A DNA stretch of 64,000 nucleotides from the NCBI GenBank assembly GCA_021792255.1, contig JAJYUZ010000005.1, positions 1 through 64,000 on the forward strand, read 5' to 3'. The notes beneath the pieces were generated by a model that had not been told where the DNA came from, did no database searches, and saw nothing but the letters and a program-made list of their open reading frames with translations. A program made the position numbers and the translations under genes. Source of the stretch: Thermoplasmata archaeon. GTDB taxonomy: Archaea; Thermoplasmatota; Thermoplasmata; Thermoplasmatales; GCA-001856825. Position 1 is the stretch's first letter; each line of letters begins with the position of its first letter. Below, piece by piece: positions 21,218 through 54,988 of the stretch.

Positions 21218-21895
21218 TTGAGTAAGGAGAAAGCAGGCAGGACAGCCACTAAGAAAGTGAAGGACAAGTGGAAAGCAAAGAGTTGGTACACGATACTGGC
21301 CAACGATTCGTTTGGAAAGAAAGAAATTGGCAGTTCGCCAGCTTCTTCGCCAGAAGAGATGGTGGGAAGGGTCTCGGAAGCTGCCCTTTCTGATATAACA
21401 GGAGATTACAAGCAGAGTCACGTCAAGCTCTACTTCAGGGTAACTAAGACTGAGGGAGACAAGGCGTTCACGGAATTCGAGGGGCACAAGATAGACCAGG
21501 ATTATATAAGAAGGATGATCCGGAGAAGGAAGACGAGGATCGACCTCACTGTGAATGGATTGACTTCCGATAACGTGAGCATCAAGATAAAGCCCATCAT
21601 AGTTGTCGATAGGAAGGTCATCAACAGTGTCGAGACTGGGATAAGGAACAAGGTTGCAGAATTCCTCAAAACCAAGGCAAGGGAGCAGCCCATCAGCCAG
21701 TTTGTAGTTTACATGTTTTCAACGCAGATATACAACGATCTTTACGATCAGATAAAAGTCATCTACCCGGCAAAGAAGATTGAGATCAGGGGTTCGGAGA
21801 TTTTCGAACCAACGAAAAAGATTGGGAAAGAAGTGAGAATAGAGAAAGAGCCGGTCGAAGAAGAGGAAGAAGGGTCTGAAGCCGGGGTGGCTTAG
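21218..21895 (+). CDS. Small-subunit ribosomal protein eS1 (S3Ae)
   Basis: A 225-residue component of the archaeal 30S subunit. It has the basic N-terminus (MSKEKAGRTATKKVKDKWKAK) and the family sequence WYTILANDSFGKKEIG. RVTKTEGDKAFTEFEGHKI and QPISQFVVYMFSTQIYNDLY follow. The Glu-rich tail (EKEPVEEEEEGSEAGVA) is usual. The start codon is TTG 21218-21220, since no ATG is available before the conserved part. A TATA-like AAGTATTTATTAA lies about 40 bp upstream. The last five codons, including the stop, lie inside the downstream tRNA-Met gene. Confidence 0.96.
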   Translation: MSKEKAGRTATKKVKDKWKAKSWYTILANDSFGKKEIGSSPASSPEEMVGRVSEAALSDITGDYKQSHVKLYFRVTKTEGDKAFTEFEGHKIDQDYIRRMIRRRKTRIDLTVNGLTSDNVSIKIKPIIVVDRKVINSVETGIRNKVAEFLKTKAREQPISQFVVYMFSTQIYNDLYDQIKVIYPAKKIEIRGSEIFEPTKKIGKEVRIEKEPVEEEEEGSEAGVA

Positions 21896-21970
21896 TCGGT
21901 AGAGCGTCGGACTCATAGGGATTAAAACTGGGAAATCCGAAGGCCCCGGGTTCGATTCCCGGCCCCGGCA
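21881..21970 (+). tRNA. Elongator tRNA-Met(CAT) with a 17-nt intron
   Basis: The acceptor GCCGGGG pairs with CCCCGGC (21963-21969), with discriminator A at 21970. The T-arm is CCGGG-TTCGATT-CCCGG. The anticodon stem TCGGA/TCCGA encloses CTCATA plus an inserted stretch. With the intron at 21918-21934, between positions 37 and 38, the mature loop is CTCATAA. The anticodon CAT is at 21914-21916. The GCCGGGG acceptor fits elongator rather than initiator tRNA. The 5' end overlaps the eS1 coding sequence by 15 bp. Confidence 0.94.
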
Positions 21971-42022: not shown

Positions 42023-42556
42023 TTAAGGAATCTTTTTCAGATACCTGAAATACATCATCTGCACTTCAGGCAAAGTCCAGCTGTACCGCGCATGAATACA
42101 GGCAAAGCTCTGGTCTTTTTCGCACCAGAGTCTCTGGATACCTTTGTCATCATTCTTCATGAGGATTGTTATCCTTTCATTTGACCTGAGGTCTTCGAGT
42201 ATGATGTGATCGTCGTATGCCCTTACGCTGAAGATCTGAGGCATCATTTCGAAAATATCTATTATATTAGATTCGCCTGAAAGTTGAGTCTGAGGGAGCT
42301 CAGTCCCGTTTAACAAGTCTTCGACCCTTCTCAGCTGAATCGCAGCAATCCTTCCCCTGTTCGTCAAGGAGATGAAGTATGTCCTCCTCACAATGACCTC
42401 CTGCCTCATCGTAATCAATCCGAGACTGACAAGGGACTCAAGGTTCCTCTCCAGTGAGTAGGAATTCGGAACTACATCCAGAAGAAATGACTTCGTTACT
42501 TCTGAACCTGCGTCGTAAAGCTTCAAGAGTATTGCACGCCCCTTATCAGATATCAC
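42023..42556 (-). CDS. Winged-helix transcriptional regulator
   Basis: A 177-residue protein (183 if TTG 42574 is used). The N-terminal about 80 residues form a winged helix-turn-helix of the archaeal MarR/ArsR-like type: KGRAILLKLYDAGSEVTKSFL, then SLERNLESLVSLGLITMRQE, then a wing ending YFISLTNRGRIAA. The C-terminal about 90 residues (IFSVRAYDDHIILEDLRSNERITILM) are an unassigned ligand- or dimerisation-like domain. GTG 42556 is preferred because TTTTATATAC is centred about 26 bp upstream. It is divergent from the 143-residue gene and probably regulates the shared promoter. Confidence 0.8.
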   Translation of the reverse strand: MISDKGRAILLKLYDAGSEVTKSFLLDVVPNSYSLERNLESLVSLGLITMRQEVIVRRTYFISLTNRGRIAAIQLRRVEDLLNGTELPQTQLSGESNIIDIFEMMPQIFSVRAYDDHIILEDLRSNERITILMKNDDKGIQRLWCEKDQSFACIHARYSWTLPEVQMMYFRYLKKIP

Positions 42557-42576
42557 ATTCCAAAATTTAGCCAAAG

Positions 42577-43085: not shown

Positions 43086-43647
43086 ATTAGCACTGGTGTT
43101 CCTCAGTACGCCTTCTAAAAGGCGGTAGGACAGTAAACACAACCATAGGGGAACACATTGAAGGGTTGTTATTTCAGGAACTGCCGGCCGGTTCCCAAAG
43201 ATCGGCATGGTGAGGAAGTGGAAGAGGAAACGGAAATTTTTGTTCATGGTCATAAGGACGGAAGAGTTGGAGTGATGTTTTTCTGAAATCATGAGAATGA
43301 TCATGGGTACTCTCAGGTAAAGAAGTGGCAAAGGTGGTACATTACCTTAGTCATGGGTCGTGCGGAAAATTTGTGCATTTTTCCAATTTTACCGTGAATT
43401 TACCGTTTATTTTACCATCACTCTACCGCATCTTTACCGACTATTTTCACTCCATTTCACTACTAGGAGCTCATAGGAAGAACTGTTATAGTCTCGTATG
43501 CGTCAGGAGATGGACTGCGACCCGTCCTTGTTCTGGATAAAACATAACCTGCTATAGTCGCTATTAAATTTCTTCCAATCATCGAGGGTTTCGGAATCCT
43601 CAGTAGAACCTCAAAAAATTAAAATACGGTAAAAATAATCTAAATCG
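43086..43647. other. Long intergenic region ahead of the CDP-sugar genes
   Basis: It contains a hairpin CGCCTT-CTAA-AAGGCG (43109-43124), possibly ending the upstream gene, and a phased TTTACCG array (43388-43439, listed separately). A lone CGGTAAA at 43627-43633 lies just before the rfbF start. Open frames in the rest have no recognisable content and several look like decayed sequence. Confidence 0.5.
43388..43439 (+). repeat. Phased array of five TTTACCG-like heptamers
   Basis: Units start at 43388 (TTTACCG), 43399 (TTTACCG), 43411 (TTTACCA), 43422 (TCTACCG) and 43433 (TTTACCG). Spacing is 11, 12, 11 and 11 bp, about one helical turn, so all units face the same side of the DNA. Degenerate T-rich units may continue on both sides (TTTTCCA near 43378; TTTCACT at 43445 and 43455). 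The array lies about 210 bp upstream of rfbF. Confidence 0.8.
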
Positions 43648-44424
43648 ATGAAGGTAGTCATATTAGCAGGGGGAAGAGGTACAAGGTTATCCGAGGAAAC
43701 AACGGTGAGACCAAAACCTATGGTAGAGATTGGAGAGCAACCGATTATGTGGCATATTATGAAAATTTATTCCCATTATGGTTTTAATGATTTTGTAATC
43801 TGTTTGGGATACAAAGGCAATGTCATAAAGGAATATTTTTACAACTACTTTATCCATGAATCTGACATTGAACTAAACTTGGCAACGAGGGACTTTAAAA
43901 CGTTGAAGAATCCTCCCGAACAATGGAAAGTCACCCTCGTGAACACAGGGCTCGATACCATGACAGGGGGGAGGATCAAGAGAATAAAAGACCATATTGG
44001 AGATGAAACATTCATGATGACATACGGAGACGGCCTTTCAGATCTGAACATTGGTTCTCTTGTCGATTATCACAAGGCCCATAGCAAATATGCGACCGTT
44101 ACGGCGGTCAAGCCACCAGGAAGGTTCGGTGCGATTTCATTACAGGAAAATGGTCTGGTATCTCAATTCACAGAGAAGCCAAGGGGAGATGGGTCGTTTA
44201 TAAACGGAGGTTTTTTTGTTCTCGAGCCTGCAATTTTCGACTATATTGAAGGCGATGGCACAATCTGGGAACAAGAGCCTCTCAGAAAGCTGTCGCGGGA
44301 CAATCAACTTATGGCTTTCAGGCACGATGGTTTCTGGAAAGCTATGGATACAATGAGAGATAAGATTGAACTAAAAAATCTTTGGAACAGCGGAAATGCA
44401 CCATGGAAGGTGTGGAAGAGTTGA
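43648..44424 (+). CDS. rfbF: Glucose-1-phosphate cytidylyltransferase
   Basis: It makes CDP-glucose from CTP and glucose-1-phosphate, the entry step to CDP-deoxy sugars. It has 258 residues, the normal length. The nucleotide-binding start is VILAGGRGTRLSEETTVRPKPMVEIG-like (key residues G-G-x-G-T-R-L and K-P-M). The metal/product region is MMTYGDGLSDLN. The sequence KPPGRFGAI and FINGGFFVLEP are typical of the RfbF subgroup rather than RfbA or GalU. It starts the cluster rfbF, 3,5-epimerase-like, dehydrogenase/epimerase, half-epimerase and rfbG. Base composition is more AT-rich than the housekeeping genes. Confidence 0.96.
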   Translation: MKVVILAGGRGTRLSEETTVRPKPMVEIGEQPIMWHIMKIYSHYGFNDFVICLGYKGNVIKEYFYNYFIHESDIELNLATRDFKTLKNPPEQWKVTLVNTGLDTMTGGRIKRIKDHIGDETFMMTYGDGLSDLNIGSLVDYHKAHSKYATVTAVKPPGRFGAISLQENGLVSQFTEKPRGDGSFINGGFFVLEPAIFDYIEGDGTIWEQEPLRKLSRDNQLMAFRHDGFWKAMDTMRDKIELKNLWNSGNAPWKVWKS

Positions 44425-44460
44425 TTAAAACCATGAACTTTAGGTATGGAGGAATTGACC

Positions 44461-44910
44461 ATGATTGATGGAACCAAAATTACCGAACTGCGGATTATAC
44501 CTGACGAGAGAGGGGCAGTATTAAGAATGCTTAGAAAAGATGATCCTGTCTTTTCCAAGTTCGGAGAAATCTATTTTTCGAAGGTTTATCCGGGCGTGGT
44601 TAAAGGATGGCATCTTCACAAGAAGATGACCTTAAACTACGCAGTTCCAGTCGGAATGGTCAAGTTGGTTCTATATGATAACAGGGAAAACTCCTCTACA
44701 AAGGGGGAGATAATGGAGCTTTTTATAGGGGAGACCAATTATCAGCTGGTAACTATACCTCCAAACGTCTGGAACGGTATTAAGGGAATAGGTACGGTGC
44801 CCGCTTTAATAGCCAACTGTGCAACAGAACCACACGACCCAAATGAAATAGTAAGGATGGACCCAGAGGACAACTTCATTCCCTACAACTGGAACTTAAG
44901 GTGGGGGTAG
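44461..44910 (+). CDS. dTDP-4-dehydrorhamnose 3,5-epimerase-like cupin
   Basis: A 149-residue protein from ATG 44461 (154 from ATG 44446). It belongs to the RfbC-like cupin family: ELRIIPDERGAVLRML at the start, GVVKGWHLHKKMTLNYAVPVG with the metal/catalytic His region, VKLVLYD, and FIGETNYQLVTIPPNVWNGIKG at the end of the barrel. It is shorter than classical RmlC (about 180). In this cluster it probably acts on CDP-4-keto-6-deoxyglucose rather than a dTDP sugar; the exact reaction is an inference. Confidence 0.85.
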   Translation: MIDGTKITELRIIPDERGAVLRMLRKDDPVFSKFGEIYFSKVYPGVVKGWHLHKKMTLNYAVPVGMVKLVLYDNRENSSTKGEIMELFIGETNYQLVTIPPNVWNGIKGIGTVPALIANCATEPHDPNEIVRMDPEDNFIPYNWNLRWG

Positions 44911-44915
44911 AGAAA

Positions 44916-45857
44916 TTGAAAGTTCTCGTTACTGGGGCAAATGGCTTTATTGGTTCTCACGTGCTGGAAGCCTTAATAAAGGAAAATGGTTGGGAAATAG
45001 CCATTACTCTAAGACCTGAGTCTGATATCTCTAGAATAAGGAATATGTTGGAAGAATCAAATAGAATCAAGGCATATGTCTTGGGTGAACAAAGCTTAGA
45101 CAGCATCATTTCGAGTTTTAAACCTGACCTTGTTGTTAACTTTGCAGTTTACTACGAAAAGAAGGACCTTTATTCTAATATAGATCAAATGGTTGAAACA
45201 AACATATCATTTTCCTCTAAGATTTTAGATTCCATGTCAAGAAATGGAGGAAGGTTTTTTGTGAACACAGGGACTTACACAGAATTCCTAATGGATAAGC
45301 AAATCTTAGCTACAGAATCTAACGTTCACCCTGCCAATCTCTACTCCGCAACCAAGGCAGCATTCGAAAACATCTTAAAATATTACACCGAGAATTATAA
45401 TATAACTGCAGTCACATTGAACCTTTCAACTACTTACGGACCGAAAGATAAACCCAATAATCTAATTCCATATTTGGTGAATTGTTCTTTGGAAAATAGA
45501 GATGCAAATGTCTCAGCGGGGGAACAAATTTTGGATTTCGTTTATGTAAAGGATGTTGCAGAAGCATATGTAAAAGCTATGAGATACTTATTGGGCACCC
45601 ATAAAAATTACGACGTGTTTAGCATAGGAAGTGGCTCTCCTCACAATCTTAAGGAAATCGCTGAAATTATTAGCGGATTCGGTGGCAATCTCAGGATCAA
45701 CTGGGGGGCAATACCTTACAGCCTTCAAGAGACGTTCTTCTTCAAGTCTGATATAACCCACGCAAGGAATGTTCTCAGGTGGTGGCCAAAATATACACTG
45801 AGTGAAGGCCTCCGTGAAACCTTTGAATACTTTAAGGGTGTAAAGTCCCATGAATGA
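44916..45857 (+). CDS. NAD(P)-dependent sugar epimerase/reductase (extended SDR)
   Basis: An extended short-chain dehydrogenase of about 314 residues. It has a Rossmann motif VLVTGANGFIGSHVLEAL and the active-site YSATKAAFE (Y-x-x-x-K) with an upstream Thr/Ser in NTGTYTEF. The frame opens at GTG 44901, but TTG 44916 puts the Rossmann strand directly after the start and shortens the overlap: GTG 44901 overlaps the previous gene by 10 bp, TTG does not. It most likely reduces or epimerises CDP-4-keto-6-deoxyhexose, as in abequose/paratose/tyvelose-type pathways. Which sugar results cannot be read from sequence. No RfbH dehydratase is present, so a 3,6-dideoxy sugar is unlikely. Confidence 0.85.
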   Translation: MKVLVTGANGFIGSHVLEALIKENGWEIAITLRPESDISRIRNMLEESNRIKAYVLGEQSLDSIISSFKPDLVVNFAVYYEKKDLYSNIDQMVETNISFSSKILDSMSRNGGRFFVNTGTYTEFLMDKQILATESNVHPANLYSATKAAFENILKYYTENYNITAVTLNLSTTYGPKDKPNNLIPYLVNCSLENRDANVSAGEQILDFVYVKDVAEAYVKAMRYLLGTHKNYDVFSIGSGSPHNLKEIAEIISGFGGNLRINWGAIPYSLQETFFFKSDITHARNVLRWWPKYTLSEGLRETFEYFKGVKSHE

Positions 45858-46143
45858 AGACATCTATCCAGAAATAAGCATACTTGGAGCAAGGCTCTCC
45901 GGACTTTCTCTCTATATTCCCGAAGGTTTCGCTCATGGATTCTTAACCCAAGGAGAAAGTAATATCGTCCTTTGCCTTGTTGATAAACGCTATAGCCCTC
46001 AACACGAAGGTGGCATTAGGTACGATTCATTTGGTTTTCATTGGCAGATATGTACGCATAAAACACTATCAAAGAGGGATCTCTCGTTCATCAAGTTCAG
46101 CAACTTTCGCACGCCATTCGGAGGTAATATAAATGAAAGGTAA
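45850..46143 (+). CDS. C-terminal half of a 3,5-epimerase (RfbC-like), stand-alone
   Basis: A 97-residue protein matching only the second half of dTDP-4-dehydrorhamnose 3,5-epimerase: LSLYIPEGFAHGFLTQGES, then VDKRYSPQHEGGIRYDSFGFHW and LSKRDLSF near the end. The N-terminal half of the cupin, with the catalytic His and Lys residues, is absent. The start ATG 45850 overlaps the preceding stop and the end overlaps rfbG by 11 bp, so it is translated as part of the operon. It may be a decayed remnant, or a small cupin that works with the other epimerase-like protein. Confidence 0.75.
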   Translation: MNEDIYPEISILGARLSGLSLYIPEGFAHGFLTQGESNIVLCLVDKRYSPQHEGGIRYDSFGFHWQICTHKTLSKRDLSFIKFSNFRTPFGGNINER

Positions 46144-47215
46144 TTTATCAAAAGATCATTTAGAGTTTTTTGGAAAGAAGAAAATTCTAATAACCGGTCA
46201 TACTGGTTTCATTGGTTCCTGGCTTACAAAATGGCTCTCGATGCTGGGTTCCCAAGTTTTAGGGTACTCTTTAGATCCTTCAACACATCCAAATATGTTC
46301 TCTAATCTAAATTTTGGAAGTAATTTAATCGATGTTCGAAATGATATCCTCAACAAAGAGTCTTTGAAAAAGGCTGTAAGTGACTTTGAACCAGAGATAG
46401 TATTTCATTTAGCGGCACAACCTATAGTGTTAGAATCATATAACAATCCAGAATATACCTATCAAACAAACGTTATTGGGACAGTTAACCTTCTAGATAT
46501 TTTACGAAAAAATCAATCCGTGAAGGTTATAGTGGTAATTACAAGTGACAAAGTTTACGAAAATGTGGAATGGATTTATCCGTATCGTGAGACCGACCCA
46601 TTAGGTGGGAAGGACCCTTACAGTGCGAGTAAATCTTGTCAAGATATCGTAGTAAGTTCGTTTAGGGAAAGCTTTTTTGCCGGTCGCGATGTAAGTGTAT
46701 CTTCCATAAGGGCTGGTAATGTTATTGGGGGTGGTGATTGGGGGGAATTTAGGCTGGTACCTGATATTGTAAGGGGAATTACTCAAAAGAAGATTATCGA
46801 TTTAAGAAATCCTTACTCAACTAGACCATGGCAACACGTTCTTGATCTAGCATTTGGAATGATGAAATTAGCCGAGATGAGTTGGTTGAACACCGAATAT
46901 GCAGGGATCTGGAATTTTGGGCCTACTGGCGCAGACAATTTAACGGTGAAAGAACTTGCCGGCAGATTAATTAATTTTTGGGGAGCCGGCGAGTATAAAA
47001 TCTCAAAAAGTGGAAAATTTTACGAGGCATCTTATTTGAAACTTGATATAAGCAAGGCTAGGCATATGCTAAACTGGTACCCGCTAGTTGATATTGATCG
47101 GTCGGTGGTAAAGACTGTTGAATGGTATAAGAAATATTACCACGGTCGTAATGAAATTAATAAATTTACAGAAAAACAGATCAATGAGTATTCCGAGAAT
47201 AGAAATGCGAAGTGA
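46133..47215 (+). CDS. rfbG: CDP-glucose 4,6-dehydratase
   Basis: It converts CDP-glucose to CDP-4-keto-6-deoxyglucose with bound NAD+. It has 360 residues, typical length. The Rossmann motif is ILITGHTGFIGSWLTKWL. The catalytic segments are VITSDKVYEN and PYSASKSCQD (Y-x-x-x-K). The sequence RAGNVIGGGDWGEFRLVPDI and RPWQHVLDLAFGMM are hallmarks of RfbG/DdhB. It completes the rfbF product pathway. The start overlaps the half-epimerase gene and a glycosyltransferase follows with overlap. Confidence 0.96.
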   Translation: MKGNLSKDHLEFFGKKKILITGHTGFIGSWLTKWLSMLGSQVLGYSLDPSTHPNMFSNLNFGSNLIDVRNDILNKESLKKAVSDFEPEIVFHLAAQPIVLESYNNPEYTYQTNVIGTVNLLDILRKNQSVKVIVVITSDKVYENVEWIYPYRETDPLGGKDPYSASKSCQDIVVSSFRESFFAGRDVSVSSIRAGNVIGGGDWGEFRLVPDIVRGITQKKIIDLRNPYSTRPWQHVLDLAFGMMKLAEMSWLNTEYAGIWNFGPTGADNLTVKELAGRLINFWGAGEYKISKSGKFYEASYLKLDISKARHMLNWYPLVDIDRSVVKTVEWYKKYYHGRNEINKFTEKQINEYSENRNAK

Positions 47216-48191
47216 AGCGATAACGGGTAATAGATTAATATGCGAGTTAAAAGAAGAGCCCATAAATCTATTTTTCAGTCTCGCTGATTATAGGAACAGT
47301 TATTTCACAAGCAACGACCAGAACAAGATAATGGAGTTCTATGAAGGGGTTCAAGATTCAGAGGAACTAATTGAATGGATGAGAGAAAGACCAAAAGGTG
47401 TATCATATGTTCATGAGGTCGAAGGCGACAAGGAGATTGTTGTCGTCATAACAACGGCCGACTTTGATGGCAAGTACGCGAAAGAATGCAGAGATAATAT
47501 ATTTAAAGGCCTCCATTTGATATTTGTAGAAAGTGGAGGAAGAGGTGACTTTTATTTCAACATTGCGCACAACATCAACGTCGGAATTAAGAAAGCGATG
47601 GAATACAATCCAAGATGGGTTGTGTTTTCTAATGACGATATGGTAAAACAGGATGAAATTTCAGTACTTCAAGAGGCGCTGAAGAATTACGATCCTTCTA
47701 AGACAGGAATAGCGTATTTTTATCCCAGCACAAGTTACCACTCTAGGGAAATGAATATATCCACCATTAGGAAAACAAGATCAATTGTGAATCCACTGCT
47801 GCTCTATTCCCGCCGGAAGGCATTTGATATTCTAAAGAAATTTAACACTAAATTCGTTCTATCTGGGGGTTCTATCCGGGACTTACTCTTTTATAAGAGA
47901 GTACTCACGTTCAGGAATACAATTGCCATTGCTGTTTATTCAGCGGAAATGATAAAAGAATTTATCTCTAGATACGGTTGTTTTTTTGACGAAACATACA
48001 TAAATTCTGGCGAAGATGGTGATCTCGCATTAAGAGTTCAAAAGGCAGGATGGGAAAAAGGGGAGGTCAATTTTAGGATACGTCCCCTCATAGGTGGAAC
48101 CTTTGGCAATTCAGACAGCAGGTACCTGAGGGATCAAGCCGGCAACATCTATTTTTCAAAGAAGCGAGAGGAAGAGGAACATGACTTTTAA
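47205..48191 (+). CDS. Glycosyltransferase, GT-A-like (paralogue of the gene at 55933)
   Basis: About 328 residues from ATG 47205; ATG 47184 or 47118 are possible starts but lie deeper in rfbG. A metal-binding acidic motif is VVFSNDDMVK, and a distal acidic motif is NSGEDGDLALRVQKAGW, the pattern of GT2-like enzymes (D-x-D then E-D). SLADYRNSYFTSNDQN and IEWMRERPKG are shared nearly word for word with the protein encoded at 55933-56913. A membrane segment is not evident, so the enzyme is probably cytoplasmic or peripheral. The donor may be the CDP-sugar made by the preceding genes. Confidence 0.8.
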   Translation: MRSEAITGNRLICELKEEPINLFFSLADYRNSYFTSNDQNKIMEFYEGVQDSEELIEWMRERPKGVSYVHEVEGDKEIVVVITTADFDGKYAKECRDNIFKGLHLIFVESGGRGDFYFNIAHNINVGIKKAMEYNPRWVVFSNDDMVKQDEISVLQEALKNYDPSKTGIAYFYPSTSYHSREMNISTIRKTRSIVNPLLLYSRRKAFDILKKFNTKFVLSGGSIRDLLFYKRVLTFRNTIAIAVYSAEMIKEFISRYGCFFDETYINSGEDGDLALRVQKAGWEKGEVNFRIRPLIGGTFGNSDSRYLRDQAGNIYFSKKREEEEHDF

Positions 48192-48248
48192 GTCACGGTC
48201 GTACTCCAACGCAACTAGATTCCTTGGAAAAGTCATTTACAGTGGAGC

Positions 48249-48278
48249 TATACCGATTGTTTTACCGCGTCTTTACCG
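48249..48278 (+). repeat. Three TTTACCG-like heptamers, phased
   Basis: Units start at 48249 (TATACCG), 48261 (TTTACCG) and 48272 (TTTACCG), spaced 12 and 11 bp. It is the same motif and phasing as at 43388-43439. It lies between a glycosyltransferase gene and an insertion sequence, possibly in what was the upstream region of the UDP-sugar operon before the insertion. Confidence 0.7.
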
Positions 48279-48414: not shown

Positions 48415-48903
48415 ATGGTGGAAATGGGTATTGATGAGCTCAAGCTCAATTACAGGAATGAGAAGGATGCGGATGTGCGAGAACGCATCCTCATGATCAT
48501 ATGGCTGAAGTCAGGCATATCCAGCTACAAGATTGGTGAAAGACTGTTCTGTCCCCAGTCCAAGGTCATCTACTGGAAGAAGAGGTATGCAGAACATGGA
48601 ATGGATGGTCTAAGAACAGTCCAGAAATCTGGAAGGCCTACACAAATGGATGAAGTCACAGAACAGCATATAAAGGAAGAGCTATCCTCAAAGGAATACT
48701 GGAAATCCACCCAAGTCTCTTCCATAATCAGGGAGAAGGGCAGAATGATCTACACTCAGAGGCATGTGCGCCGTTTAATGCAGAAGTGGGGTTATTCCCT
48801 AGTAACTCCAAGGAAGAAGCACAAGAAGGCAGCCTCCGATGAAGAGGTTGAAAACTTTAAAAAAAATCCGCAGAGATACTGGGTTCTCTCAGGAAGGGAA
48901 TGA
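48415..48903 (+). CDS. IS630-family transposase, N-terminal ORF A (HTH)
   Basis: A 162-residue protein with two helix-turn-helix segments. The first is around VRERILMIIWLKSGISSYKIGERLFC and the second around STQVSSIIREKGRMIYTQRHVRRLMQK, separated by the linker DGLRTVQKSGRPTQ. This is the DNA-end-binding half. The stop overlaps the ATG of ORF B by 4 bp (ATGA). The DDE domain is therefore made by coupling or by frameshifting near the A-rich stretch at 48859-48865. Confidence 0.9.
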   Translation: MVEMGIDELKLNYRNEKDADVRERILMIIWLKSGISSYKIGERLFCPQSKVIYWKKRYAEHGMDGLRTVQKSGRPTQMDEVTEQHIKEELSSKEYWKSTQVSSIIREKGRMIYTQRHVRRLMQKWGYSLVTPRKKHKKAASDEEVENFKKNPQRYWVLSGRE

Positions 48904-49403
48904 CTGCGGTGTGCATGGATGAGTCCATATTCGTATACGACTCAATAGTAAGAAGGGTGTGGGCAAGGAAGGGAAGCAAGCCAAGAATCATGACAACGGG
49001 TTCTCACAAGAAGGTGCTTCTATCCGGTGCAGTTGCATTAGACGGATCGACTCTATTCCGTTCCTATGAGGGCATGGCATCAAGGGAATTCATCTCCTAT
49101 CTCAGTGCACTGAAGAGGAAGTATGGAAAGTACGTACTGTTCTACGATGGTGCACCCTGGCACAGATCTGAGAAAGTGAAAAGATTCCTCAAGAAGAACA
49201 GGAGGAGGATAAAGCCTGTGATGTTTCCAGCATGTTCTCCCGAGCTTAATCCTGTGGAGGAGTGCTGGAACATAGGAAAGAACACCCTCCTTGGGTCTAC
49301 GGTGCCGGACAGCTTCGAAAAATTGAGGAGAGAGGTATCGGAATATTACAGGACAAAGAAGTTCCATCTAAATATAATCAACTACATATGTCCATATCTA
49401 TAA
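48900..49403 (+). CDS. IS630-family transposase, C-terminal ORF B (DDE)
   Basis: A 167-residue catalytic half. The three acidic residues of the DDE triad are visible in TAVCMDESIF, VLFYDGAPWHRSEKV and CSPELNPVEECWN. Other family hallmarks are the 'D-G-A-P-W-H' and 'P-E-L-N-P-V-E' boxes. The TAA stop lies inside the candidate right inverted repeat. Together with ORF A it gives about 329 residues, normal for IS630. Confidence 0.92.
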   Translation: MTAVCMDESIFVYDSIVRRVWARKGSKPRIMTTGSHKKVLLSGAVALDGSTLFRSYEGMASREFISYLSALKRKYGKYVLFYDGAPWHRSEKVKRFLKKNRRRIKPVMFPACSPELNPVEECWNIGKNTLLGSTVPDSFEKLRREVSEYYRTKKFHLNIINYICPYL

Positions 49404-49711: not shown

Positions 49712-50641
49712 ATGGCAGGGGCACTTGTTTCGGGTGGAAATGGTTTCTTGGGATCACATTTGGTTGAAAAACTACTTAAAGAGTGTCTTGAAATTACAGT
49801 TGTGGATGACCTATCTACTATGGAGGAAATGAATTTGCCAAAAGACGTTCGATTTGTGAAAAAGAAAATTGAGAATTTCAAAACTGAAGAAAAATTCGAC
49901 TATGTGATTCATATGGCCGCAAGACCTTCGCCTGAAGACTACATCCAGAATCCGATTGATACTTTGATGTCTAATTCAAAGGGTACTAAGGTGATGCTGG
50001 ACATAGCGCGATTGTCTAACGCAGTTTTTCTGTATACTTCTTCTTCAGAAGTGTATGGGGAAGCTTCCACAATCCCCACGCCTGAGAGCTACTTCGGATA
50101 CGTTAACAGCATCGGTCCGAGGAGCTGTTATGATGAAGGGAAAAGGTATTCCGAATCTCTAATTATGGCTTATTACAGACAGTTCAATCTAGACGTAAGA
50201 ATAGAGAGACCGTTCAACGTGTATGGACCCAGGATTAGGGCTGACGGATTTTATGGCAGGGTCATACCAAGGTTCGTTACATCGGCATTAAATGATAAAG
50301 ACTTAATAATCTACGGGGATGGTCAACAGACTCGCTCCTTCCTATACGTTAACGATTGGGTCGATGCCACTTGGACCTTTCTGACAGAAAGGAATCTTTC
50401 CGGCCAATTTATTAACGTAGGATCAAGGGATGAGATTACAATTAACGATCTCGCTGAGAAAATTGTGAACATCACCTCCTCTCAATCGAAAATTGTCAGG
50501 GTAGAAGGTAGACAAGATGATCCCAGAAGGCGTGCAGCAGATATTACCAAAGCTGGGGAATTATTAAAATGGAAGTCAATGACGAGCCTAGATGAGGGGC
50601 TTCGCCAGACCATAAGTTGGTTCAAGGGGAGAGAGATATGA
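49712..50641 (+). CDS. uxs: UDP-glucuronate decarboxylase (UDP-xylose synthase)
   Basis: An extended SDR of 309 residues. It has the Rossmann motif VSGGNGFLGSHLVEKL, FLYTSSSEVYGEA, and the segment NSIGPRSCYDEGKRYSESL, almost diagnostic for UDP-glucuronate decarboxylases (Y-D-E-G-K-R with catalytic Tyr/Lys). RIERPFNVYGPRIRADGFYG and GDGQQTRSFLYVNDWVDA follow. It converts UDP-glucuronate to UDP-xylose. The next two genes make its substrate from glucose-1-phosphate, strongly supporting the assignment. Its stop overlaps the ugd ATG. The alternative activity, UDP-glucose 4-epimerase, is less likely. Confidence 0.93.
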   Translation: MAGALVSGGNGFLGSHLVEKLLKECLEITVVDDLSTMEEMNLPKDVRFVKKKIENFKTEEKFDYVIHMAARPSPEDYIQNPIDTLMSNSKGTKVMLDIARLSNAVFLYTSSSEVYGEASTIPTPESYFGYVNSIGPRSCYDEGKRYSESLIMAYYRQFNLDVRIERPFNVYGPRIRADGFYGRVIPRFVTSALNDKDLIIYGDGQQTRSFLYVNDWVDATWTFLTERNLSGQFINVGSRDEITINDLAEKIVNITSSQSKIVRVEGRQDDPRRRAADITKAGELLKWKSMTSLDEGLRQTISWFKGREI

Positions 50642-51861
50642 AGATTTCTGTGGTAGGACTAGGATTTGTTGGCCTAGTTACCTCAGTGGTACTCTCTAGG
50701 GCTGGTAATAACGTTATTTGCATAGATACCGATGAATCAAAGATAAATAGACTGAACAAAGGGGAGCTATACATATACGAACCGAAGCTAGATTCCTTGT
50801 TTACAGATCAAAAAAGTAAGATGAGATTTGAAACTGATTACTCTGACGTAAAGGGGAGCGACTTGACTTTCGTTTGCGTTCCGACACCAACAGTGAACGG
50901 CCGGAGCGACCTATCGTTTGTTCGAGATGCTGTAACAAGAACAGGCAAAGTGGATAGAGAAACAATAATTGTTATAAAAAGCACAGTTCTTCCAGGAACA
51001 GCTAAATCTCTTTCCTCTGCCATTAGCAATAGGATAATTTCCAATCCTGAATTTCTTAGAGAGGGTTCAGCCGTAGATGATACACTACATCCTGACAGGA
51101 TAGTGATCGGAGGAAGGGATAATGCGGCTTTGGACAAGGTTGAGGGGGCTTGGAGATTCTGCGGATCACCCATAGTCAGAACGACAAATGAGAATGCAGA
51201 GCTTATAAAGTATGCATCTAACTCATTTCTTGCTGCGAAGATTTCTTTTATAAACGAAATATCTGACCTCTGCGAGAGAATTCCAGGTACGGATGTAGAA
51301 ATTATTGCAAAAGGAATGGGGTTGGACCACAGGATAGGAAGAGAATTCCTCAGGGCAGGGCTAGGGTTCGGCGGTTCCTGCTTTCCAAAAGATACCCGAG
51401 CGATAGCAGAATATGCGAATAAAATAGGGACTAGACTGTCCATAGTCGAATCCGCAATTGACGTCAATGAAAGAAGGGTCGAAAGGGGAGTTAAAATCAT
51501 AGAGAATACAATGGGCAGTCTTAACGGTAAGAGGATATGCCTGCTTGGTTTGAGCTTCAAAGAAAACACAAACGACCTGAGGGAGTCGAGGGCGTTGGAC
51601 TTAGCAAGGGCGCTTAGAGAAAGAGGTGCACTAGTCTATGCATATGATCCGGTCATAAAAGACATTGAAGGCATTGGAACACTGAGAAGTGCTGAGGAAT
51701 GTGATGGCATGGATTGCGTTGTTGTTTCTTCGGAATGGAAAGAGTTTGAAGACCTACCGCTGTTCAAACGAGCTAACAATGTGATAGATCTTAAGAGGAT
51801 TGTGAATACTGCGACTAATCCAAGTGTCAAGTCAATAGGGGTTGGATATGCAAAGAATTAG
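50638..51861 (+). CDS. ugd: UDP-glucose 6-dehydrogenase
   Basis: It oxidises UDP-glucose to UDP-glucuronate using two NAD+. From ATG 50638 there are 407 residues, normal length. The NAD-binding motif is VVGLGFVGLVTSVVLSRAG. The middle has VCVPTPTVNGRSDLS and KSTVLPGTAKS. The nucleophile Cys is in GLGFGGSCFPKDTRA, and the C-terminal UDP-binding part begins LLGLSFKENTNDLRES. The ATGA overlap with uxs and the overlap with galU mark one operon. The product feeds uxs. Confidence 0.97.
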   Translation: MKISVVGLGFVGLVTSVVLSRAGNNVICIDTDESKINRLNKGELYIYEPKLDSLFTDQKSKMRFETDYSDVKGSDLTFVCVPTPTVNGRSDLSFVRDAVTRTGKVDRETIIVIKSTVLPGTAKSLSSAISNRIISNPEFLREGSAVDDTLHPDRIVIGGRDNAALDKVEGAWRFCGSPIVRTTNENAELIKYASNSFLAAKISFINEISDLCERIPGTDVEIIAKGMGLDHRIGREFLRAGLGFGGSCFPKDTRAIAEYANKIGTRLSIVESAIDVNERRVERGVKIIENTMGSLNGKRICLLGLSFKENTNDLRESRALDLARALRERGALVYAYDPVIKDIEGIGTLRSAEECDGMDCVVVSSEWKEFEDLPLFKRANNVIDLKRIVNTATNPSVKSIGVGYAKN

Positions 51862-52651
51862 AAAGGCTGTGATCCCTGCAGCAGGTTACGGAAAGAGGTT
51901 CTATCCGCTCACCAGAGCTCAGCCCAAGGAGATGCTTCCAGTTCTCGACAAGCCGGTCATTCACTACGTCGTAGAGGAGGCAGTGTCGTCGGGACTAGAT
52001 GAAATACTGATCATAGTTGGAGCAGGAAAGGACGCAATAATAAATTACTTTGACAAGAACAAAATGGACGACGAGCTTGACAATTACGGTTTCAAAGGAA
52101 TGCCCGATATTTACTTCGTAAGACAGAAAGAGCAGAAGGGACTGGGTGACGCGATAAGGTATGCAAAAAATTTCACAGGCGACGATGACTTTGTAGTTCT
52201 TCTAGGCGATACAATTTACAAATCAGAAACAGAAAGGACGGTAACTTCGCAGTTGATAAATCTGTACGAAAAGACGGGTTCCCCTTCGATTATCGTTGAA
52301 AGGGTAAAAGCGGAAAAAATAAGAGATTACGGTATTGTTGACGGTGAAAAAGTCTCGGATGATGTCTTCAGGGTTAGATCTATTGTAGAAAAACCCGATC
52401 CATCCGACTCGCCCAGCGACTTAGGAGTCACGGGTATATACATTCTAGGTCCATACATTTATGAATGTCTGGAGAACATACCTCTAGGAAGGAACGGAGA
52501 ATACCAGCTAAGCGATGCATACAATCTGCTCGTAAAGAAAATGGATGTGTTCGCACTGATCATGAAAGGCAAGAGATACGATATAGGAACGAAGGAACTG
52601 TGGATAAAGACTTTTATAGAGTTCGCAAGCAAGCACGGCGGATACGGATGA
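51848..52651 (+). CDS. galU: UTP-glucose-1-phosphate uridylyltransferase
   Basis: It makes UDP-glucose from UTP and glucose-1-phosphate. It has 267 residues from ATG 51848. The signature start is VIPAAGYGKRFYPLTRAQPKEMLP. Further matches are FVRQKEQKGLGDAIRYA, FVVLLGDTIYK with the metal-binding Asp, RSIVEKPDPSDSPSDLG, and the sugar-binding end GKRYDIGTKELWIKT. An upstream TTG (51842) is possible. It is the third gene of the UDP-sugar operon uxs-ugd-galU. Confidence 0.97.
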   Translation: MQRIRKAVIPAAGYGKRFYPLTRAQPKEMLPVLDKPVIHYVVEEAVSSGLDEILIIVGAGKDAIINYFDKNKMDDELDNYGFKGMPDIYFVRQKEQKGLGDAIRYAKNFTGDDDFVVLLGDTIYKSETERTVTSQLINLYEKTGSPSIIVERVKAEKIRDYGIVDGEKVSDDVFRVRSIVEKPDPSDSPSDLGVTGIYILGPYIYECLENIPLGRNGEYQLSDAYNLLVKKMDVFALIMKGKRYDIGTKELWIKTFIEFASKHGGYG

Positions 52652-52782
52652 AGTTAATGTCAAATGTGCTTGTTACAGCGGGAGCAGGGTTCATCGGGAG
52701 TTCCAGTGTTGACATGCTCGTGGAAGAAGGGTGTTACGCTAGTCTGATAGACAACTTTGAAAGATGCGTTCATAGGGAGTAA
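52648..52782 (+). pseudogene. Truncated NAD-dependent sugar epimerase (first 44 codons only)
   Basis: ATG 52648 overlaps the galU stop. The frame reads MKLMSNVLVTAGAGFIGSS, the Rossmann strand and glycine motif of a GalE-like SDR, then LVEEGCYASLIDNFERC and a stop. Everything after the first beta-alpha-beta unit is gone. The remnant implies that the operon once continued with a fourth, epimerase gene, deleted by a rearrangement that brought in the next glycosyltransferase block. Confidence 0.8.
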
Positions 52783-52951
52783 GAAGTCAGTTCCTCGTGC
52801 TTAATAGTGATTTTTTCCCAAACATAGTCTCAGTAACATGAGTGCCATATAAGTTAAAATATCTGGCCAACTAGAGAAAGTATTCACATATCTGTTGATA
52901 TTCATTTGGCTTCGTGCCAAATATTATTAAGATGAGTTCTTATAGAACAAT

Positions 52952-54106
52952 ATGACGCTCAAAGTAGCATTCATTATGTTCAGCAATCTAAGTGTAGGTA
53001 GAGGTACAGAGAATATTGTGATGCAGTACTGCAAATTTTCTCCCTCCGACGTGGACATCACGATATTTCAGACAGATTTTCCGAGAGGCGAGGTTCAAGA
53101 AAAAGATTTTGACTTTGGATTATCCAAGCCCAAAATAGTCACGTTAAGAGGATTCGATCAGAGGTCAATTTTTCCTTCGAGGTCAATAGTGGTATTGGCC
53201 CTAACTCTTTATGTAAGATATCCCTTTCTTTTTTTAGCTTTAAGATTTATAAAAGAATATCGAGAAATGAGAAAGCAACTCAAGGATTTTGATGTCGTTT
53301 ATGTGTTCGGAAACTATTGGTCTTCGCTAGTTCCAAGAGGGCCTATAGTTGTCGGCTCGCCTCAAGGTTGGGAGCCGGAAAGAATCGGGGTTCTCAAGGC
53401 GCTAAACACATCAATTATTGGTAATGGACTCATATGGAGAAGAATTGATTATTTTCATTTGTTTCCTAGAAATAGCTGGTTTCTTGAAAGATATAACAAA
53501 AAAGGATTTGTCTTAGGCAATGGAAGCAGGTTATTATCCAGTTCGTCCGAAACCATTAAAGAAAACAATAAATTGGAATTTTGCTTTTTAGGCGCTCTTG
53601 AGGAATGTAAAGGCACTCTCACAGCTGTTAAGGCGTTTGAACTCCTAAGAGAGAGGGTAAGAGACAGGGAATTGGAGCTTCACTTAGTTGGGAGTGGTCC
53701 TCTCTTAAACGAGATCGAGGAAGGACAAGGGATGGTAAAGCACGGATTTATAGGCAACAAGAAAGAATTGCAGTCAATATTGAGTTCTTCAGATTGTTTC
53801 ATTTATCCAACCACCTGTGATACATTTGCTTTAGTTGTTATCGAGGCTTTGTCCGCAGGCACATATGCGATTGTATCAGACAGACTGCGGGGGGTTTATG
53901 ATAAATTTGAATATATGGGGGTACTGGAATACTGTCCGCCAACAGCTCATGCACTGGCTGATCAAATGCAGAATTTTTTAGCTAAAAGTGTGCCAAAGAA
54001 AAATTTTGACATCGCACGCCAGTTGATTCTAAGAGAGTATTCGTGGGAATCTATCACGGAAAAACTATTTGCAGAATTTAGGAAGTTAGTCAAAGAAAAT
54101 TCTTGA
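52952..54106 (+). CDS. Glycosyltransferase family 4-like
   Basis: A 384-residue GT-B fold glycosyltransferase. The N-terminal domain begins LKVAFIMFSNLSVGRGTENIV (G-G-T-E-like acceptor loop). The C-terminal nucleotide-sugar domain contains FCFLGALEECKGTLTAVKAF, LHLVGSGPLLNEIEE and the retaining E-x(7)-E motif in SSSDCFIYPTTCDTFALVVIEALSAG. This builds part of the surface glycan in the cytoplasm. CAAATATTATTAAG about 28 bp before ATG 52952 is a likely TATA region. The gene is AT-rich relative to the UDP-sugar operon. Confidence 0.9.
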   Translation: MTLKVAFIMFSNLSVGRGTENIVMQYCKFSPSDVDITIFQTDFPRGEVQEKDFDFGLSKPKIVTLRGFDQRSIFPSRSIVVLALTLYVRYPFLFLALRFIKEYREMRKQLKDFDVVYVFGNYWSSLVPRGPIVVGSPQGWEPERIGVLKALNTSIIGNGLIWRRIDYFHLFPRNSWFLERYNKKGFVLGNGSRLLSSSSETIKENNKLEFCFLGALEECKGTLTAVKAFELLRERVRDRELELHLVGSGPLLNEIEEGQGMVKHGFIGNKKELQSILSSSDCFIYPTTCDTFALVVIEALSAGTYAIVSDRLRGVYDKFEYMGVLEYCPPTAHALADQMQNFLAKSVPKKNFDIARQLILREYSWESITEKLFAEFRKLVKENS

Positions 54107-54988
54107 CCTTCTTCTAACTTGGAAAGTCTATGTTCTACATTTTTCTCATCCTTTTAACCAGACGCATTTAACCAATACTGGTGATAACCTGCGCGATGGC
54201 GAGACTGCAATAAGTCTGAACATGACTTTCGATCTTTGATGTTCTGAAGTCTAGGACTATTCGTGCCTTTAATTGTGTATTGCTGCAATGGGTTGTTGTG
54301 GGGAATCTCAACTCCCCGTCGACAGAGGATGACAGTAATGATGCCGGTATGCTATTCTAGTGGGTCTTCCTTTGTCTCGAATCTGTGTTGAGCAACTATG
54401 ACATTATAGAGAAGTATCTCTCTGCAATTTCAATTGTCTTTTCATAGTTACTGTTTACAAGATAAAGGAATACCTTTCGCTTTCCCCTGTTCTTCTTTAG
54501 GAATGAGTGGAATATTAAAATAAAAGGGAGGTGAAATGGCAGAAACCACTCCTTAATTTATTTCGCCGTTTGTCTCAAACTGCTATAAACACTACATAAG
54601 ATATATAGACTGCGAGGAAAGGTGGTAAAGTTGCGGTAAACTATCTTAATTTTTAGCGCTGCCGGATAATAAAATTTTTAACCAGCTTATATACTCAAGT
54701 TGCTCAGAATAATAAATAAGAGCATACGTAGAAGGTCTGACCGATAAGAGATTTTACAAGTCAGTCATAAAAACAAGGAAAAGAGGTTAGGTGACGGGAC
54801 TTGTTTCTTTATAAATTCTTGTCTGAAATTAGGAGAAATATTACCCTTTCATGTATAAAATCTGCGGAATCATTTATTAGGAATAATTGTAATAAAAAGA
54901 AGGGAACATAACGGGTTTAACTTCTAATGTAACCGACATAAATTGCAGTCGATCTTAACTGACACACACATTGGCAGCCGTGCCTTAG
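54107..54988. other. Long gene-free stretch with decayed coding sequence
   Basis: It is 880 bp without an intact gene. On the minus strand around 54399-54515 an open stretch reads NSNYEKTIEIAERYFSIM before a stop, looking like a gene fragment of unknown family. A hairpin GGGGA/TCCCC is visible near 54300-54317. Two phased CGGTAAA-type heptamers lie at 54623-54640 (listed separately). The rest is AT-rich with no signal recognised. Confidence 0.45.
54623..54640 (-). repeat. Two TTTACCG-like heptamers (reverse orientation)
   Basis: TGGTAAA at 54623-54629 and CGGTAAA at 54634-54640, spaced 11 bp. They are the reverse complement of the motif at 43388-43439 and 48249-48278. It is the third occurrence in an intergenic region of the glycan locus. 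Confidence 0.5.

Follow-up and report, generated by a model that had tools for sequence, protein, structure and literature searches.

The window, the 64,000-nucleotide stretch of archaeal DNA analysed here, carries a row of short, phased direct repeats (array 1) in the gap 43086-43647, upstream of a cluster of surface-glycan genes. What is this array for, and which protein, if any, reads it? An earlier note had offered three readings: replication iterons, cooperative regulator sites or intrinsically bent DNA. Array 1 and the features around it are collected in Table 1. They include the gene for a large protein with an N-terminal HTH and a long coiled coil (HTH-CC) and the gene for a small conserved protein (P143).

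Table 1. Positions of the repeats and neighbouring genes in the window
Feature	Position	Strand	Description
HTH-CC gene, 439 aa	40079-41398	-	predicted three-helix HTH at residues 6-44; long helices at 134-208 and 284-367; proposed array binder
183-aa protein	42023-42574	-	weakly winged-helix-like; outside the conserved module
P143	42654-43085	+	small conserved protein; adjoins arrays at four loci of family f1
Array 1	43388-43439	+	TTTACCG 43388, TTTACCG 43399, TTTACCA 43411, TCTACCG 43422, TTTACCG 43433; steps of 11, 12, 11, 11 bp
Single inverted TTTACCG	43627-43633	-	CGGTAAAA on the + strand; about 15 bp 5' of the rfbF start codon
rfbF-like nucleotidyltransferase	43648-44424	+	first gene 3' of array 1
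Remainder of first glycan run	44446-48191	+	dTDP-sugar isomerase-type and NAD-dependent epimerase/dehydratase genes, one gene without assignment
Array 2	48236-48278	+	TTTACAG, TATACCG, TTTACCG, TTTACCG; steps of 13, 12, 11 bp
IS630-type transposase	48415-49403	+	broken into two frames; array 2 lies 5' of it, the next glycan gene (49712) 3'
Second glycan run	49712-54106	+	3' of array 2; epimerase, UDP-glucose/GDP-mannose dehydrogenase, nucleotidyltransferase, GT4 glycosyltransferase
Array 3	54623-54640	-	weak, two units: TTTACCGCAACTTTACCA; within the 882-bp gap 54107-54988

Re-reading of the sequence returned the five heptamers and their spacing exactly as the note had described them. The spacers (TGAA, TTTAT, TCAC and CATC) are all different, so array 1 is not the product of a recent tandem duplication. 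The suggested extension to eight or nine units found no support when one mismatch at most was allowed; the flanking T-rich words TTTCCAA, TTTTCAC and TTTCACT match only loosely. All units had also been said to face one side of the helix. The phasing of about one turn stands, and the single face holds approximately: the four steps cover 45 bp, or about 4.3 turns at 10.5 bp per turn, which gives a drift of about 100 degrees. Therefore a slowly winding filament fits array 1 as well as a flat face does.

Such an array is not expected by chance. When the 64-kb window was simulated with a first-order Markov model and any heptamer repeated 10-12 bp apart with at most one mismatch was counted, arrays of at least five units appeared in none of 1200 simulations and arrays of at least four units in 9 of 1200. 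With the unit fixed as TTTACCG, array 1 scored 29 and array 2 scored 22, and all of 30 shuffled 64-kb sequences stayed below 12.

Paired units are confined to one part of the genome. Each of the three TTTACCG arrays of the window lies in a large intergenic gap of the glycan cluster; that of array 2 follows the glycan gene ending at 48191, and the array is upstream of the IS630-type insertion now present in the same gap. Between 43 and 59 kb, the window has seven exact TTTACCG sites, none of them inside a gene. The genome-wide search that the note had proposed returned four matches to paired units (TTTACCGN4TTTACCG, at most one mismatch) in the 1.59-Mb genome, all on the same contig (C9) and in this glycan cluster, and the reversed control pattern returned none. 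A looser pattern gave 6 matches versus 3 for its control. It covers a TTTACC pair on the minus strand of the same contig (L018:14611-14627, that is G000:C9:78611-78627), immediately 5' of a TATA-like stretch at a 1175-aa S-layer-like gene, which may be a chance match. TTTACCG pairs elsewhere in the order were judged by eye to resemble, for the most part, chance matches within genes. Among the matches listed in a three-unit TTTACCG scan of all genomes, many were exact tandem repeats of 11 or 12 bp in which every spacer is the same; array 1, with its four different spacers, is not of this kind.

The 575-bp intergenic region, used as a DNA query, matched nothing in 16 relatives, because both the motif and its flanks change. 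A motif-blind scan of the glycan clusters of relatives detected phased GTTCAAA arrays in three genomes (G006, G001 and G011, the last from another genus). These arrays are orthologous and lie between P143 and the HTH-CC gene. In the alignment of the trio, 91% of the array columns were invariant versus 68% and 78% in the two flanks, as were 34 of the 35 word positions, and the G006 array is longer than its orthologues by exactly one 11-bp unit. Where the orthologues align, no stretch is better conserved than the array.

Further arrays use other words. In G075, from another family, nine TGTCTAA-like words 11 bp apart lie 492-580 bp upstream of an HTH-CC gene. This module is not at a glycan locus and adjoins an IS4-like transposase and a DUF3644 gene. 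In G086 and G106, five RTACGG words 11-12 bp apart lie 443-496 bp upstream of HTH-CC genes, the one in G106 seen in part as it runs off the contig end. G007, which belongs to the same genus as the window genome, has a short TTTACCG array upstream of its glycan cluster, and the 8 bases CGGTAAAA stand just 5' of rfbF both there (L041:14732) and in the window genome, while the remaining G007 region has diverged; despite this array and this site, no HTH-CC of the 439-aa type was detectable in G007. G011 also contains two four-unit phased blocks, one of ATTCTCC and one of CTCCCCA words, separated by about 136 bp (L227:10122-10302), which adjoin a truncated HTH-CC remnant and have TGTGGAAA words nearby. 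Conservation of the array in relatives, on which the earlier note had made its reading depend, is thus found in the architecture, mostly with another motif. The period and the place of the array are conserved and the letters of the word are not, and for this reason a search with a single motif would have failed.

The note had connected array 1 with the divergent pair 42023-42574/42654-43085. The pair is indeed nearby, but the better-correlated partner of the array is the HTH-CC gene, about 2 kb away with two genes between. A phased array was found 5' of each of the seven large HTH-CC genes whose start could be read (those of the window genome G000, G006, G001, G011:C15, G075, G086 and G106), usually 440-600 bp from the start codon. 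In the copies on G009:C16 and on G011:C31 and C77, a contig end truncates the 5' flank. The seven are not independent and fall into four motif classes (TTTACCG, GTTCAAA, TGTCTAA and RTACGG). Each array scored above all of its 60-150 shuffles, and none of 283 control 5' flanks (1 kb, same DNA) reached the lowest array score (maximum 11.4 versus 13.1-26.0). The signal was confined to periods 10-12. No array was present in the flanks of 12 small paralogs of 330 aa, or at an interrupted HTH-CC homologue in G031. For the window gene the flank scanned was 2.2 kb, versus 1 kb elsewhere. The modules of G075, G086 and G106, from a different family, were retrieved by searching the order for homologues of the HTH-CC HTH region, and their flanks were scanned only after the hypothesis had been set. 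The hexamer score was written after the G086 array had been spotted by eye, so it is the shuffle and control-flank counts that carry weight; an earlier, stricter heptamer scan found the G075 array and missed those of G086 and G106. The 183-aa protein of the divergent pair had no homologue in the regions of relatives examined.

HTH-CC proteins form a real homologous family (BLASTP E = 8e-06 for the window copy versus that of G006, a single comparison). The Pfam family HTH_23 scored above its cut-off in the G086 copy and just below it in the window copy. In the structural model, which is of low confidence (mean pLDDT 50), three short helices at the N terminus are followed by two of 75-84 residues. 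In the region of the recognition helix, G006 and G001 share RSIGIVNAVISDW and G011 has the near-identical RSIGIVNALISDW; all three use the word GTTCAAA. This region reads SHPTVGKVLDEI in the window (TTTACCG), SKDTANGIINDW in G075 (TGTCTAA) and AKSTVQDTVNRW in G086 (RTACGG). The same helix thus occurs with the same word and a different helix with a different word, which is consistent with word recognition by HTH-CC. It is not proof, since any protein diverging along with the module would show the same pattern.

Among the three readings of the earlier note, cooperative regulator sites are the best supported. We consider that the arrays are probably the cognate, cooperative binding words of HTH-CC, through which it would control its own module and probably the neighbouring glycan genes. 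Each word would be read by one HTH; a repeat of about one turn would align neighbouring HTHs, and the coiled coils could join them into a single cooperative nucleoprotein block. As 11 bp slightly exceeds a B-DNA turn, the row of HTHs would wind slowly about the DNA, as RdfS or BldC filaments do. Between lineages the recognition helix and the word would change together, while the period and the 5' place stay. Because TTTACCG words also stand in the other large gaps of the glycan cluster and before rfbF, the most likely role of HTH-CC is transcriptional control of the glycan cluster as well as of its own module. The arrays, their period, their link with HTH-CC, the change of motif and the conservation of the array beyond that of its flanks are shown; binding by HTH-CC, its cooperativity and the regulatory outcome are inferred. 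If HTH-CC regulates its own gene directly, a distance of 450-600 bp between operator and gene is long.

The module, an HTH-CC gene with phased words upstream and usually at a surface-sugar cluster, is previously unlabelled in archaea. Taken as a whole, it could well represent an undescribed archaeal system, a broader proposal to which we give slightly less than even weight: a family of HTH-CC proteins in which every member has its own word, repeated in a phased array that is reserved for it and stands at a nearly constant distance 5' of its gene. Specificity and array would switch together between lineages, and the system would control, mark or physically organise variable surface-glycan loci. 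An orphan repeat is hereby joined to an orphan protein family. There are at least four natural protein/word pairs, so HTH specificity should be directly testable in archaea, and the module offers a handle on how archaea control or maintain variable surface-sugar loci.

The array may instead be a centromere-like site at which HTH-CC would act alone to segregate or anchor DNA, in the manner of pSK1 Par or KfrA; the module would then be a relic of an integrated element or still serve one. This is unlikely, though it is the main rival. pSK1 Par and RocS are, like HTH-CC, single proteins with an HTH and a coiled coil, and pSK1 Par acts at DNA repeats. The parC site of plasmid R1 likewise has 11-bp direct repeats, in blocks of five; its protein ParR is a ribbon-helix-helix protein that works with the actin-like ParM, and neither kind of protein was seen here. 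A single-protein HTH/coiled-coil partition system is cited for pSK1, and pSK1 Par and RocS carry DUF536 and a membrane-binding helix (PMC11500499); DUF536 was absent among the family matches here. KfrA of plasmid RA3, a bacterial protein with an HTH and a long alpha-helical tail, has an operator of five 9-bp repeats whose number matters for repression (PMC7783346). Like KfrA, HTH-CC has its HTH at the N terminus and a long coiled coil behind it, with helices predicted at low confidence, and the clustered short direct repeats near the gene repeat the KfrA arrangement (PMC7783346). The differences are also clear. KfrA is a bacterial plasmid protein, and its repeats occur in both orientations and overlap the kfrA promoter, whereas the HTH-CC arrays are phased by one turn, keep a single orientation, lie 440-600 bp or more upstream and use lineage-specific words; the KfrA family was not among the Pfam or NCBIfam matches of these proteins.

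The position of the array clear of the likely HTH-CC promoter fits a partition site, and the G086 module also adjoins a CopG-like coiled-coil gene. The distance from the HTH-CC start and the resemblance to KfrA and pSK1 Par lend a partition or DNA-organising role some probability. Against it, the window has the same words in several gaps of the glycan cluster and also at the promoter of rfbF. Reading of the open frames around the modules revealed no actin- or tubulin-like partition NTPase, and searches of viral and plasmid collections, which probably hold few relevant archaeal elements, detected no relative of HTH-CC or P143.

It is less probable still that P143 is the binder. In this reading a small winged-helix-like protein would build head-to-tail filaments along repeats spaced by one turn. 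RdfS and BldC form such filaments, BldC with one DNA turn between subunits; both bind direct-repeat DNA at about one subunit per turn with a variable number of repeats (PMC5859096, PMC11963761). They are small wHTH proteins without a coiled coil, and the BldC repeats are 9 bp. The model of P143 shows low-confidence helices and a C-terminal hairpin. Its gene lies 135-300 bp from four arrays, and distantly related P143-like genes stand directly beside the tyrosine integrases of other elements. However, the arrays of G075, G086 and G106 have no P143 match (for G075, at the thresholds used), several P143 copies have no array, and in G001 the P143 gene is frameshifted with the array retained.

P143 occurs in several copies in G011 (C3, C15, C31, C59 and C77), often at contig ends and beside HTH-CC or S-layer-like genes; on C59 the similarity to the other copies ends just short of the expected array position. 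At L282:512-1890 and L274:467-1492 (another family), P143-like genes stand directly upstream of element-type tyrosine integrases, a hint that relatives of P143 may act as accessory or directionality factors.

One of the readings first proposed, replication iterons, here taken as those of an integrated plasmid-like element, is very unlikely, even if phased repeats of this size are typical of iterons. No initiator or other replication gene was recognised near the array in the open frames read (36-64 kb of the window), neither HTH-CC nor P143 matched a replication initiator family, and TTTACCG forms three array sites within 12 kb. A Rokubacteria contig does carry a TTTACCG array (L053:3848-3901), whose units are 11, 12, 11 and 12 bp apart and whose spacers differ, between a tyrosine recombinase and a HUH-Rep-like frame. 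It looks like element iterons, with the shared word by coincidence or not. It is hardly credible that the array works without a protein of its own, as intrinsically bent DNA or as a structural RNA element. The GTTCAAA arrays do show strong curvature in a wedge model, but curvature is not a common property, with array 1 at about the 90th percentile and array 2 near the median, folding z-scores of 0.0 to 1.5 were no better than those of shuffles, and the words are conserved beyond A/T phasing.

The glycan and S-layer-like genes of the contig resemble the heptose/fucose/rhamnose S-layer cluster of Iplasma from acid mine drainage (PMC3750248), so the source is probably an Iplasma-like member of the Thermoplasmatales. 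Fragments of sugar-nucleotide genes at 45850-46143 (C-terminal part of a dTDP-sugar epimerase) and 52652-52782 (start of an epimerase) suggest that the glycan cluster was reshuffled recently. Rfam searches returned tRNAs and nothing else. One of them, at 21881-21970 of the window, was called a 90-nt tRNA-SeC with anticodon TCA by ARAGORN and a generic tRNA by Rfam; selenocysteine use would be unusual for this archaeon.
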